NCBI GenBank assembly: GCA_015295985.1
Contig: DVDX01000023.1
Span: forward strand, 62,001-126,000
DNA from: Synechococcus sp. M44_DOE_062
Lineage (GTDB): Bacteria > Cyanobacteriota > Cyanobacteriia > Thermostichales > Thermostichaceae
Length of the DNA stretch: 64,000 bases
Reading direction: 5' to 3'
Position numbers and translations under genes: made by a program. Within the stretch, counting starts at the first letter, position 1. Every line of letters begins with the position of its first letter. The notes beneath the pieces were generated by a model. That model ran no database searches and was not told the DNA's origin. It saw nothing but the letters and a program-made list of their open reading frames with translations. Below, piece by piece: positions 22,234-28,519 of the stretch.

Positions 22234-22581
22234 TTAGAGGTCTTCTGCACAGAGAACTGCAGCTTTGAGGGGGCCAGCTTGCCCTAACCTATCCAAAAAA
22301 TGCTGCAAGAGCTGAAAACTGGGTGGGTTAAGGCTGTAGTAAATCCAGCGGCCCTGCTGGCGAGCATTGACCAATTTCGCATCGCGCAGGGTTTTCAGGT
22401 GAAACGAGAGCTTGGATTGGCTCACCTTCAGCTCCTCGCAGAGATCACAAACGCACAGCTCGCGCCCCTGCAGCAGTTGCAGCACACGCAGGCGAATCGG
22501 GTCGGAGAGAGCGTGGAACCCCGCCCGCACCTGCTCATCCATCCAATCCCCTTCTACCTCGACCAGCAGCGAAACCATCAT
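22234..22581 (-). CDS. ArsR/SmtB-family transcriptional regulator
   Basis: 115 residues. Winged-helix repressor: ALSDPIRLRVLQLLQG at residues 24-39, then GRELCVCDLCEELKVSQSKLSFHLKTLRDAKLV. ELCVCDLC in the alpha3 helix provides the vicinal Cys pair used by ArsR-type arsenite sensors, with a third Cys three residues on. The recognition helix is SQSKLSFHLKTL. Metalloid sensing is inferred from the Cys motif. No arsenic-resistance gene is adjacent; the ArsA-like gene lies 20 kb away. Confidence 0.88.
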   Translation of the reverse strand: MMVSLLVEVEGDWMDEQVRAGFHALSDPIRLRVLQLLQGRELCVCDLCEELKVSQSKLSFHLKTLRDAKLVNARQQGRWIYYSLNPPSFQLLQHFLDRLGQAGPLKAAVLCAEDL

Positions 22582-22671: not shown

Positions 22672-23889
22672 TCACTCGACGGCCAGCAAATACAGACCTT
22701 CCGGTTCAGAAGGGATCAGTCGATACGGATCCTTCTGATTGGCCTGTTCACAAAGATTGGCAAAAGACTGCAAACCTTCCAAGCGTTCTGCGAGTTCGCT
22801 GAGGGTGTCGAGATACTCCGCCAAGCCCGCTTGAGTCAGGTACCAAGATTTGTCCAGCTCCCGAAAATAGGTCATCTGAAACTCCACCGAGAGATTCTTC
22901 TCTCTGAGAAAGCGCTCCTGCGGAGTTAGGGATCGGTCAAAGGGAGAAAGACGGGCAATGCGCTGGATCCGCTGGCTGGGGATGTAGGGGGCAAAGCGGG
23001 GGGCCATGTAGGTGTATGCTGTTTGCAGTTGAGGCCGATCTGCCGGCAAGAGAGCAGCACACCACCTTTCACTGAGCTGACGGAAACGGGGAACCTCAGA
23101 GTTGAGACTATCCACCGCATCTCGAAGGTACCCATGCTTAATCAAAAGCTGGGACTCGGTTGCCAAAGAGACCGCCCAACCCTTGAGGGCAACATCGCTG
23201 AGCAGCAAATGGTGGGCTTGGCGCTCAACGGGAATCTGATGAGCCTGATCGAAGAAAAAAGCGCGGGTTTCTGCTAAAACCTTAAGGGCATCACGAGGAG
23301 AAGCGTCGGGAAATCTTTTTAGGCTGGCCAGTTCTGCTTGGAGCTTGGCAAGGCTTTGGATAAAGATGGCGCGATGTAAGTTGGAAATAGCCTCCAGAAT
23401 CTCAGCCCTACTTCGTATAGCGAGGATTTGTAGGTAAGCAAGTTGTCCAGCAAGCGTCTCAAGCTTCGAGCCAATATCTTCAATCCCACTCCTAACAAAG
23501 TTTTCAAGATTGATAATGGAGTCCTGCAATTGGTTTAGCCGAAAGTGCATGTAGGTGAAACCAATGGCGCTGACCCCTAGATTCAAAGCGCTGGCCCCGG
23601 CGGTCACTTGGGAAAGGCCCAAAAGGCTGGTGGCAGTGCGTTGCAGAACCTCAAGCTTTCGATGGGTAGCTTGGTGACCAAGGGTATTGATCACCGGATC
23701 TAAAACACTAACAATCGGAGGAACAGGAGCATTCGTCAGCAAGCTCGTCAGTCCAGGAGATTCCGCTAGGTGCTTGACAATGCGACCTGTGCCGGCCTCT
23801 CGAATCACGCCCCCATAGCGAACCAGGGATCCATCCAGGAGCCCGCTAACAATTGGAGCCGAAGCAAAAAGAAGAGTTGGAATTAGCAT
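22672..23889 (-). CDS. hypothetical protein, partner gene of dynamin-like operon
   Basis: 405 residues from the ATG at 23889, supported by AAGGGG ten bases upstream; the longer open frame has no such site. The first 25 residues are hydrophobic (LIPTLLFASAPIVSGLL). A Gly/Ala-rich hydrophobic segment (LGLSQVTAGASALNLGVSAIGFTYMHF, around residues 92-117) could be a membrane hairpin and leads directly into a helical coiled-coil-like region (RLNQLQDSIINLENFV). The C-terminal 200 residues are helical and soluble. It is the last gene of the low-GC operon headed by the GTPase pseudogene. Not recognised; membrane association is inferred. Confidence 0.72.
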   Translation of the reverse strand: MLIPTLLFASAPIVSGLLDGSLVRYGGVIREAGTGRIVKHLAESPGLTSLLTNAPVPPIVSVLDPVINTLGHQATHRKLEVLQRTATSLLGLSQVTAGASALNLGVSAIGFTYMHFRLNQLQDSIINLENFVRSGIEDIGSKLETLAGQLAYLQILAIRSRAEILEAISNLHRAIFIQSLAKLQAELASLKRFPDASPRDALKVLAETRAFFFDQAHQIPVERQAHHLLLSDVALKGWAVSLATESQLLIKHGYLRDAVDSLNSEVPRFRQLSERWCAALLPADRPQLQTAYTYMAPRFAPYIPSQRIQRIARLSPFDRSLTPQERFLREKNLSVEFQMTYFRELDKSWYLTQAGLAEYLDTLSELAERLEGLQSFANLCEQANQKDPYRLIPSEPEGLYLLAVE

Positions 23890-23908
23890 GGCTTGTAGTC
23901 CCCTTAGG

Positions 23909-24511
23909 TTAAACAGGGTAGAAACCTTTCTTCGTAAGAGACTCCAGATACACCAGGGGAGAGACTCCCACAACCTTTGCCTTGCCTGCCAGTTTCAGAA
24001 ATGCATCTCGTCGATCGAGGGAACTTACACCCCTAGCCAATCCGGGAATGTCTTCATCGAGCTGGAGAGCAACCAAGCGAAAAGCACTTTCATCACCTGG
24101 CTTTGCTACTGGAACGCCCTTGCCTTGCAAGATGTCGACAAACTTGTTGGCTTCTAGCTCTGCTTGTGTTCCTCTCCAAATATATTTGGATTTCTCATAC
24201 AAGAGTTCGCATATATCTCTTTCAAGATAAATACCTTTTTCTGGGTCAGGAAAGTCGACAGAGGAAAACTTGTGGGATGAGCCAGTTCTCAACGCTAATA
24301 TAACAAAGTATGGAAATTTTTTGGCTAGAGGTACCAAGCTAGGGCCAATGCCAGGCTTGAGTAGAGCATCAGCAACAAAAAATGCACTCACTGCACCAAA
24401 AAGAGCTCCCACTGGCCCCAAAGCGGCGCTACCAACCGCAGCTCCGATCCCTAAGGCTGCAGCTCTGGCAAACTGCTCTCTCTGGCTCTGATCCATATTG
24501 TTTCCGTTCAT
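23909..24511 (-). CDS. hypothetical protein with glycine-zipper membrane segment
   Basis: 200 residues. An N-terminal glycine-zipper helix (ALGIGAAVGSAALGPVGALF, about residues 19-38) with GxxxG-type spacing suggests membrane insertion or oligomerisation. The remainder is soluble, mixed alpha/beta, ending SPLVYLESLTKKGFYPV. The ATG overlaps the upstream TGA as ATGA, so translation is coupled to the end of the GTPase frame. The gene is AT-rich and contains no GGGATCCC, unlike the rest of the window. Function unknown; position suggests a partner of the dynamin-like GTPase. Confidence 0.75.
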   Translation of the reverse strand: MNGNNMDQSQREQFARAAALGIGAAVGSAALGPVGALFGAVSAFFVADALLKPGIGPSLVPLAKKFPYFVILALRTGSSHKFSSVDFPDPEKGIYLERDICELLYEKSKYIWRGTQAELEANKFVDILQGKGVPVAKPGDESAFRLVALQLDEDIPGLARGVSSLDRRDAFLKLAGKAKVVGVSPLVYLESLTKKGFYPV

Positions 24512-24735
24512 CCTTGTTTACTCCCTACTAAGCAAAACAAATCCTGAACCAGGCACGTGATTTTTCTCTTTCTATCCTCTAGATTGTTAACTAAAGTCAT
24601 TGTTTCCTCAAGACCCTTTTCAATCAGCCCTCTCTGCCTATCCAGCTCATCCTCAGCTAGCCTGCTTGCTTGCTCAGCCGACTTTTGGACGACATCTTTA
24701 AGGTCAGACATGTAGCTCGTAATCCAATTTTTCAA
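24508..24735 (-). pseudogene. GTPase fragment 5: C-terminal coiled coil
   Basis: 75 codons from a TTG, or fewer from the ATG at 24711, in the same frame as the GTPase. Helical and charged (AEQASRLAEDELDRQRGLIEKG). It could be a real small gene, because its TGA overlaps the next ATG. Fragment 4 (24778-24990, 70 codons) lies between it and fragment 3. Confidence 0.45.
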
Positions 24736-25065
24736 AACATTCCACAGCCTTTGCTTCCCAGACCTAACTCCTTCTGACTACTGCTTTGCCATTTCGTCAA
24801 AGTTAGGCACAGTCAGGCATTGATATAACTTTTTTCCAACAATCTTTTCGTCATAAGTTCCTCCAAAGCAAGACCGACGCTTCTCCACAGTTTGTGTGAT
24901 GAGTTCCTTTTGATCCGATACTTTTATTGGATCTTCAAATATAATGACTTCTCGAACGGAGGGCGTCCTAGTCTCTGCATAGTTTCTCATCTTGTTTAGA
25001 ATCAGCTCTCTGACTCCTAGCGCATCGGCAGAGTTAGTGTGAATGCTACTTAGAATTTCAGTAAT

Positions 25066-26112
25066 CTAATCAGTCAGTTGTGAGACTAAGTGACCACTAA
25101 AACCCTCAAAGGTTTGCGCCTTCGCTTGAAGCAGAAACTCCGACCTATGCTCAAGGGCCTCCCTGACCGATTGATATAAAGCTAGGACTGAACCCTCAGC
25201 TCTTTCTATTTTCTGATGTCGCTTCCCACCCCCCTCTTTAACTTCTACCTTAAGCACTAGGGCGTTTCCATGATGCTCGCAGTCTCTTAGGGCTCTGATT
25301 GCTAGCTCACAGGCTCGGGAAACATAATTTGCCAAGTATGGGGGGATGAGCTTCACTAGAGAATCTTCAAGGTCATAAACACCAATTTCTTGCTTGAGAG
25401 TGTCTCGAATCGGGGCAATAATCTTATTGATGAGATCCCTAGCTTGCTCGTCAACAAAGTCAATAAATTCCGGAAAATCCTGCCACCCCTTTTCTCTGGC
25501 TTTGCATTCGATCTTAGATATAGACTCAGGGCTGCCGTCACTGTTGGCAACTTGGTTGATTATCTCTGCAACATCGCTGATGAAGCGGTTGATAACTGTA
25601 TTCATTTCTTTTCTACATTGCTCTTGTCTTTCTTGAACATATTTTCTTTGCCTATCCACTTCTTCCAGAGTCTCTATCCGTCTTGCTTCGATGAAGATGC
25701 TCAGTGTATCGCCAATATCTTTGGCCGAGTTGATGACTCCAAGCACGGCTGGCAGAATGGTAACCTTTGCAAATTCTGCCGCCAGCCTCTCCCGCAAGAC
25801 CTTCCACAGCAGATTACCACCGCTCCACTCCCTGGCGTATCCCAGCAATGCTCTCGTGTCTCCGTCAGATATCGCTAAGCCTTCCTCAACACCCTCTTCC
25901 AAATCCCTTAGCCAATCCCTCAGCTCCCTATTCCCCCTCGCGGAAGCTTTGATGAGGCCGGCGCAGTCTTGAAAGAAAGCGCTGAGCATCTGCCTTCTGG
26001 TATTGGAATCCACGTCAGATGATTCCGAAGAATTGGCTCCCCAGGCGCATTGAGTGTAAAAGAGCGCTATAGCAGAAAGTGGAACAATGAAAGGAAGTTC
26101 TGGGAGTTCCAA
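25066..26112 (-). pseudogene. GTPase fragment 3: helical stalk part
   Basis: 348 codons, largely helical and charged, with a hydrophobic patch near its start (PFIVPLSAIALFYTQ). An automated annotation would probably call this as a separate hypothetical gene from the TTG at 26112. The frame continues upstream to the TAA through TDDPLEQRIDDLRNEIKETL. Confidence 0.6.
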
Positions 26113-26169
26113 TGTCTCTTTAATTTCATTCCTCAGATCATCAATTCTTTGCTCAAGAGGGTCATCGGT

Positions 26170-26544
26170 TTAATTCCGCAAATCGACCCTATTTAGCAAA
26201 AAGATCATCATGCTGGTCTGGCCATTGAGAAACTCCACAACATCCTTTAGCTCCTTCAGCAGGGTTTCTCGTTTGGATTGATCTGTTTGGGAATAATCCA
26301 GGGGAACAATGCTAAAACATGTCTTGACGTGATCTTGAATAACCCTGAGGTTGGCTCTATCTTGAATTGAGTTTAATCCGGGCAGATCATAAATCTCAAT
26401 CTGCAGGCCCTTGGGCAGATTTAGCAGTAGAGGTGCTCTGACAGGGAGTAGAGGACACTCGACATCCATTTGCGGCATCGGTACGTTGTCTTTGTTCCTC
26501 TTGTTTTTGCGCTTTTGATGGTATGCCTCCATCGTGCGCTTCAA
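26170..26544 (-). pseudogene. GTPase fragment 2: G3-G4 part
   Basis: Carries DLPGLNSIQD (G3) and LLNRVDLR (G4 variant), then the TAA. The frame also reads cleanly back to the TAG at 26614 through ATEGATWECGTWEDLSDEE, so the start at 26544 is only the first TTG after the stop. Confidence 0.6.
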
Positions 26545-26613
26545 CCTGCTGTAGATCTCTTCGTCGCTTAGGTCTTCCCAGGTGCCGCATTCCCAAGTGG
26601 CTCCTTCTGTAGC

Positions 26614-27012
26614 CTAGATAACTAGCTTGCTACGCTCGTTGTGTTTGATACGTAGAATCCCGGCGCTCATCTCCTGGGCCTCGATGGGGGCAATCCTCCT
26701 GCCAATGAGGGCGTTAACAATGGTGGACTTGCCGGAGGAGGTGGTGCCGATGGTGGTAATCCGAAACGAAGGGTTCTCCAAGCGGGCAACAGCCTCTTCG
26801 TAAGTAACCCGAAAGGCTTGCAATTTTTCCAGGATTTGGGGGTTGCCAATCACATCCTGATATTCGTTCAGGATCTCGCTGATAACATTGCCTAGGGCGA
26901 ACAGGGACTGTCTTGCAGTCTGTAGGGTTGCCAAGGGATGCATAGAGTTAAAGCCGAGGTGCACTCTGATTATCTCGGCTTGAGGATAATACTGCCAACA
27001 TTGCGTTACCAA
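26614..27012 (-). pseudogene. GTPase fragment 1: G1 (P-loop) part
   Basis: 133 codons to the first TAG. A helical N-terminal segment is followed by FRITTIGTTSSGKSTIVNALIGRR, where GTTSSGKST is the P-loop. The start is uncertain (TTG 27012 or ATG 26943, neither with a clear ribosome-binding site). Confidence 0.6.
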
Positions 27013-27108
27013 CTCTGTCTTCTCTTTAACATTTCTGGTTAGAGCTCCATATCCTACTTGAAATTACCGGGATCGCTTATGCAAGAGATACGCCTGGACT
27101 GGTGAGAG

Positions 27109-28302
27109 TTAATCCCGACACAGGGATCCAATGCGAGCTTGGCAGGTGGCGATTTCTTCGGGGGTGAGGTTGTCCCAATTGACGTCGCGGCGCAGCACCA
27201 AGCCATTGTGCCCAGTGATGAAACGGGGCAGCTCTGCTTGGTCAATCACACTTAGATCCCGCATGTGATAGGTAGTGTAATAAGTAACATCTGGACTCTC
27301 GAAGTCCACGTCGATGAGGGTAATCGTCTTGCGGGGGGGCAGAGGGCTGCCCAAGAGGGGGCGGGGGCCGGAGCCGAGAATGCCGCAATGAAGCAGTTGC
27401 AGTTGCCCTTTGTGGCCGGGGTAGTAGCCGTGATGGTGGCCGCTGATGTAGGTGTGGACGCGGTACTTCTCCAGCAGGGCTCGCTTGGCATCGGCATCCA
27501 GCAATACTTCTCCCGGATCGTCGCGCCCAACGGTAATGGCATAGAGGGGCAGGTGGCCGATGACGATGCGCAACTTGGCCTTCTGAGCCCGTTCGCTGGC
27601 CAGAGCCGCTTCCGCCCAAGCCATTTGTTCCGGTGGGATGTAGTTGCAGGTGGCATCCCAGGCTAGGTAAAACACATTGTCTTTTTCAAAGGTGTAATAA
27701 AAGGGAAAGTCCCCTCGATCTACAAAGTTCAAGCCTGGATCGTGGGCCGGATCGTTCCAAAACTCGCGGGCCAGATCCCGTTCTTTTTGAAAGAGAAAGC
27801 CGCCCCGCGTGGTGCGGGCACAGGAAGCATCGTGGTTGCCCAGCGTGAAGCCATATGGGAGTTTGGCCGCTCGAAGGGGGCCGGCCACATGCCGGTCGAA
27901 GGCTGCCCACATGGCCCGGATGCGCTCCTCCGACAAGCGGGGATCCTGCCCGGCCACCATATCTCCTCCTCCCAAAACAAGATCCGGCTGAAAGTAGGGG
28001 ATGAGGCCGATGCTCCGATCCACCTCTGGGTCATATTCCACCGAGCCATAGATGCCGTTCATGTCACTGATGACCAAGAGGCGCAGATCTCGGCGGGGAG
28101 GGATGTAGAGGCCATGAGGGGCATCTGGATGGGGAACGACGGTGGGGGTGGGCTGGGGGGTAGGAGAGGGGAGAGGGGCGCCAGGGGATCCCATTGCCGG
28201 GGCTAGATGAGAGGACTGCTGCCGACTGGCCCAATAGGCTCCTGCCAGTCCACTGCTGCTGGCCAACCCCAACAACCCCAGAATCATCTTGCGCCGCTGC
28301 AT
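27109..28302 (-). CDS. metallophosphoesterase, exported
   Basis: Calcineurin-like phosphoesterase. About 397 residues from the ATG at 28302, chosen for GGGGAA upstream. A signal peptide (MILGLLGLASSSGLAGAYWA) and a Pro-rich linker (PSPTPQPTPTVVPHP) precede the catalytic domain. Metal-site motifs appear in order: LLVISDMNGIYGS (an SDMN variant of the usual DxH), LGGGDMVAG (GGD block), FTLGNHDAS (GNHD), VIGHLPLY (GH) and YISGHHHG (GHxH). The first motif lacks the usual DxH histidine, which may alter metal binding. Substrate unknown. Confidence 0.85.
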   Translation of the reverse strand: MQRRKMILGLLGLASSSGLAGAYWASRQQSSHLAPAMGSPGAPLPSPTPQPTPTVVPHPDAPHGLYIPPRRDLRLLVISDMNGIYGSVEYDPEVDRSIGLIPYFQPDLVLGGGDMVAGQDPRLSEERIRAMWAAFDRHVAGPLRAAKLPYGFTLGNHDASCARTTRGGFLFQKERDLAREFWNDPAHDPGLNFVDRGDFPFYYTFEKDNVFYLAWDATCNYIPPEQMAWAEAALASERAQKAKLRIVIGHLPLYAITVGRDDPGEVLLDADAKRALLEKYRVHTYISGHHHGYYPGHKGQLQLLHCGILGSGPRPLLGSPLPPRKTITLIDVDFESPDVTYYTTYHMRDLSVIDQAELPRFITGHNGLVLRRDVNWDNLTPEEIATCQARIGSLCRD

Positions 28303-28519
28303 GATCTTTTCCCCAACACCCCAGGGGTATTCTAGAAAATCAAAGGCCAGTGTTGGTCTTTTCCATCTGCGCACAGCCTGGACTCGGCTCGAAGATGGCT
28401 ATGGGCGGTAGCTCTTGTAGGGTTCGGGGTGCTTTTTGAACAACTGTTGATGCACAAATGCTACCCTAGTAGCAATAAGCAACTGCCTATCTCAGACCTC
28501 GTATGACTTGAGGTTTTCC

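Follow-up and report, generated by a model that had tools for sequence, protein, structure and literature searches.

The four stop codons that lie in frame within a dynamin-family GTPase gene of the window, as we call the whole 64,000-nucleotide stretch of DNA analysed here, are best explained by genuine pseudogenisation: with a probability of about 0.92, the gene is the first of an accessory cassette inherited at this site, has suffered four nonsense and extra missense changes, and decayed most likely after the split from the closest comparison strain, JA-2-3B'a. The apparent oddity in stop codon usage thus comes down to the normal decay of a gene, seen at an early stage, and the apparent link to glutamine codons which had drawn attention to it disappeared once homologues were aligned. 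The more useful outcome is a conserved trio of genes, including a dynamin-like GTPase and a JukB-like protein, which is mostly intact in cyanobacteria and has been independently lost in hot-spring Synechococcus. Two of the comparison genomes, G001 and G004, fit Synechococcus JA-3-3Ab and JA-2-3B'a(2-13), respectively, and are probably these strains.

In the favoured course of events, the cassette would have been passed down at this site from the ancestor shared with JA-2-3B'a, and would have ceased to confer a selective advantage on this lineage of hot-spring Synechococcus. The dynamin gene would then have gained the four nonsense substitutions together with additional missense changes, most likely after the JA-2-3B'a split, and in sister genomes the cassette would have been destroyed through other lesions.

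The stops and the homology are directly visible in the translation and in the alignments. Positions 24508-27012 of the minus strand translate as one frame of 835 codons with in-frame TAG at 26614, TAA at 26170, TAG at 25066 and TAG at 24778, and a terminal TGA. The read-through frame was aligned with intact homologues over essentially its whole length in the absence of any frameshift, at 37-57% identity to the full-length proteins, which bears out the earlier note's description of a single, unshifted frame that looks like protein before and after each stop. The figure of 835 codons given there is correct for the stretch as translated, but the gene itself is likely to have 811, because the homologues, which begin with MHP or MDP, start at ATG 26943 and not at TTG 27012. 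The frame matches the Pfam model PF00350 (Dynamin_N) at 3.3e-15 and 56.9 bits (cut-off 27) and retains the GTPase motifs G1 (GTTSSGKS), G3 (DLPG) and G4 (NRVD), as is characteristic of the dynamin superfamily. With four in-frame disruptions, where 25 of the 28 assessable homologues from outside the host's family have an open frame, it classifies as a pseudogene, and translation would end after 109 codons, inside the GTPase domain. Coordinates are collected in Table 1.

Table 1. The pseudogene, its stop codons, the remaining cassette genes and the flanking genes in the window.
Feature	Positions	Strand	Remarks
Dynamin-family GTPase pseudogene, cassette gene 1	24508..26943	-	811 codons, ATG to terminal TGA; PF00350; homologues
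Stop 1, TAG	26612..26614	-	His in 3/3 family relatives; mostly Glu/Ala elsewhere
Stop 2, TAA	26168..26170	-	Gln in G005 and JA-3-3Ab, Leu in G007; variable elsewhere
Stop 3, TAG	25064..25066	-	Variable position; short in-frame insertion relative to G005/G007
Stop 4, TAG	24776..24778	-	Trp invariant in 25/25 outside homologues and in G005 and G007 (both family relatives covering the site)
Cassette gene 2, 200-aa hypothetical protein	23909..24511	-	Open; ATG overlaps dynamin TGA; ends TAA
Cassette gene 3, 405-aa JukB-like protein	22672..23889	-	Open; PADLOC JukB 4.6e-7
Upstream flank, calcineurin-like phosphoesterase	27109..28374	-	Intact; Pfam PF00149 1.8e-12; order as in the JA-2-3B'a-matching genome
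Downstream flank, ArsR-type regulator	22234..22581	-	Intact; Pfam PF01022 1.4e-18; inside stretch collinear with JA-2-3B'a

It had been noted that all four stops could be single C-to-T changes in glutamine codons, with the suggestion that the homologous residues be compared. The alignment returned glutamine at one of the four positions only, stop 2, where two of three family relatives have it. At stop 1 the conversion of a histidine codon into TAG needs two changes, and at stop 4 a TGG (Trp) became TAG. As the residues are histidine, glutamine, a variable residue and an invariant tryptophan, the four stops do not mark glutamine; moreover, none of them is common to any relative examined. The lack of TGA among the stops, earlier considered unlike ordinary decay, is unremarkable, since by the codon spectrum of this sequence 77% of random nonsense changes lead to TAA or TAG (P = 0.36 for four out of four).

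Stop 2 would be accounted for if the gene originated under, or is translated with, a genetic code in which TAG and TAA specify glutamine, but family relatives have other residues at the remaining three positions, including the invariant tryptophan at stop 4. Against it stands also the presence of the gene in genus and family relatives whose code is the standard one, which contradicts the transfer from a genome with reassigned stops envisaged in the earlier note. The glutamine codons of the frame itself, with stop 2 taken as CAA, are 30 CAA and 12 CAG, the host has release factor 1 (RF1) and many genes that end in TAA or TAG, and the remnant of the cassette in JA-2-3B'a, described below, shows vertical inheritance at the site. 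The chance that this reading is correct is practically negligible.

The decoding machinery of the host was itself observed and is standard. RF1 is intact in the genome (513 bits, above the cut-off), and no CUA or UUA anticodon of the kind that a suppressor tRNA would carry was found among the 38 tRNAs detected by an Rfam search of the genome, a list which may miss a few; the combination expected of a reassigned code, a suppressor tRNA with an absent or altered RF1, is therefore not what was found. Termination at TAG or TAA is normal in this host: 22 of the 40 open reading frames of at least 250 aa in the window end in this way (14 in TAG and 8 in TAA), and the TAA end of the neighbouring gene, from which a general reassignment had already been doubted, was confirmed.

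The same data bear on stop codon read-through, programmed or tolerated, by which a low level of full-length protein would still be made. Read-through has been the interpretation given to bacterial genes that have in-frame stops yet a low dN/dS (PMC7918605), and the present frame, free of indels and with its GTPase motifs intact, resembles what would be expected. However, read-through would have to be efficient at each of four stops in series, the 38 tRNAs detected include no suppressor, and the stops are not conserved, as no relative has any of the four. Furthermore, changes have accumulated in excess at conserved positions, including the loss of the invariant tryptophan, and in sister genomes frameshift and deletion have independently destroyed the gene, which the lineage therefore does not need. 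Real read-through, the third explanation of the earlier note, is contradicted by these observations and has only a very small chance of being right.

The parallel breakage was likewise observed directly in relatives of the host. In G004, the genome matching JA-2-3B'a, the flanking DNA is collinear with that of the window, but about 510 bp stand in place of positions 22884-27103, and all that is left of the cassette at the site is a stump of 0.2 kb, the last 67 codons of gene 3. Since this stump stands at a collinear site, the cassette was present there in the common ancestor with the window. The replacement (L118:5076-5585) holds a TnpB-type tail (Pfam PF07282, 2.7e-14), an IS200/IS605-type TnpB zinc-ribbon located exactly at the site of cassette loss, and a transposon-associated deletion of the cassette in G004 is suggested. 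In G001, matching JA-3-3Ab, the cassette lies at a different location and has a frameshift, together with a deletion by which the dynamin runs into the final part of gene 3. Among the drafts, G005 has one frameshift and G007 has several, to which no weight was given because the coverage of the contig (L170) is about 2.2x; no match was found in G002, G003 and G006. Open copies amount to 0 of 4 inside the family versus 25 of 28 outside (P = 0.001, or 0.004 without G007).

If the stops were assembly or sequencing errors, the gene would be intact. Poor assemblies commonly show spurious internal stops (PMC11017572), and the genome is a draft of 90 contigs. Yet the supposed errors would be four isolated substitutions in one gene, whereas the collinear flanking genes have 96-98% amino-acid identity to JA-2-3B'a and show no disruptions, so that the neighbourhood is not error-ridden. 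Along with the stops, missense changes are in excess at conserved sites, and the sister genomes G001 and G004, each a single contig, have independent lesions in the gene. There is a small chance that errors are nevertheless responsible.

When and in what order the mutations arose is inferred from substitution counts, and the result agrees with recent pseudogenisation. In this sequence 3.7% of random substitutions are nonsense, so that some 107 neutral changes are expected for every four stops, a nonsense clock of 0.044 substitutions per site (95% interval 0.012-0.11). The dS of the flanks between the window and JA-2-3B'a (G004) is 0.23, or about 0.11 per lineage; as the clock reads less than this, inactivation most likely came after the split from G004. 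Departures at conserved positions number 22 in the window copy, against 3 in G005 and 9 in G007. According to the alignment, seven of the 22 are common to JA-3-3Ab and so are older than the inactivation; where JA-3-3Ab is comparable, only five are specific to the window. Polarised nonsynonymous and synonymous changes stand at 34:21 in the window copy versus 37:41 in the JA-3-3Ab copy (P = 0.11), and the branch dN/dS is raised, at 0.25-0.28 versus 0.16, a difference that is not significant. Transitions from GC to AT outnumber those from AT to GC by 23 to 16 in the window copy, whereas the JA-3-3Ab copy has 20 and 38 (P = 0.02); this mild shift is about equal on both strands. The first explanation of the earlier note, recent pseudogenisation with a C-to-T bias, therefore stands as regards pseudogenisation and this mild GC-to-AT shift, but not as regards C-to-T changes in four glutamine codons.

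It had also been argued that ordinary decay should give indels. Zero frameshifts among the roughly 107 inferred neutral changes, assuming that 30-50% of lesions are nonsense, has a P of roughly 0.01-0.06; their lack is mildly unusual, but with four events the evidence is weak. Overall, the timing and constraint data fit a long-constrained gene that died recently, and what counts against this is that the raised branch dN/dS is not significant and that genes 2 and 3 retain open reading frames. The case resembles bacterial pseudogenes with several nonsense mutations in its full-length homology, in-frame stops, missense excess, GC-to-AT shift and parallel loss, and differs from them in that the lesions are all substitutions; that indels have yet to appear agrees with a young pseudogene. 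The best other Dynamin_N protein of this genome, the paralogue C56, was considered as a backup copy and set aside, as it aligns over the G1 region only.

The dynamin frame is the first gene of a conserved trio, followed by the small hypothetical protein and the JukB-like protein. Gene 2 is homologous to the second gene of the cassettes of G005, G007 and a Nostoc plasmid, and gene 3 is 40-70% identical to the third gene of other cassettes. An alignment-based scan of genome contigs, undertaken where a scan with the single protein gave no relative, recovered the copies outside the family, mostly in cyanobacteria, of which 25 of the 28 that could be assessed are intact and open. The order of the trio recurs in many cyanobacterial genomes and once on a Nostoc conjugative plasmid, and related dynamins are present in some other bacteria. 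The cassette, at 22672-26943 in the window, was located also at L037:4995-9738 and L137:5001-9791. In Dulcicalothrix desertica (L167:5001-6118), the N-terminal part of the dynamin is fused to gene 3 in a manner resembling the internal deletion of JA-3-3Ab, and deletions of this kind may recur in the cassette. The viral contigs contain no relative of the GTPase, and the stop 4 region has no identical match there.

As for function, the intact cassette, with the JukB-like protein taken as a membrane protein, is tentatively proposed as an undescribed anti-phage system of cyanobacteria and a few other bacteria, which might attack phage-induced or host membranes, a possibility to which we give rather less than even odds; a limited literature search found no paper describing it. 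A defence role is suggested by weak profile matches to LeoA/LeoBC and JukB and by the scattered distribution. The dynamin frame matches LeoA/LeoBC of the Eleos system weakly in PADLOC (E about 1e-7) and shares with bacterial dynamin-like proteins, Eleos included, the Dynamin_N domain and the G1, G3 and G4 motifs. Unlike in Eleos, a second dynamin gene is absent alongside and the partners are the small hypothetical and the JukB-like protein; genes 2 and 3 gave no match to a dynamin or other GTPase, and a sequence search with the dynamin frame found no close solved structure.

All 14 gene 3 homologues match the PADLOC model of JukB, the effector of the Juk (jumbo-phage killer) system, over the N-terminal 110 residues or so only (best 5.1e-16). 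According to PMC13282480, JukA recruits JukB, which forms pores on the early phage infection vesicle. In contrast with Juk, only the N-terminal part of gene 3 matches, the gene is coupled to a dynamin, and the sensor JukA had no match among the cassette proteins, the wider neighbourhoods being covered by a sample. The predicted fold of gene 3 is of low confidence (mean pLDDT 65) and had no match in the PDB with an E-value below 0.001. A defence-island setting was considered and found no support, as PADLOC matched only one kinase-type protein among ten neighbours of intact cassettes. If the anti-phage proposal is true, the lost function would have been membrane-directed phage defence, and the decay across hot-spring Synechococcus would mark the loss of a costly defence. 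Elsewhere in the genome matching JA-3-3Ab, at G001:C1:1809586-1809963 (L223), lies a second sequence distantly related to the JukB-like gene 3.
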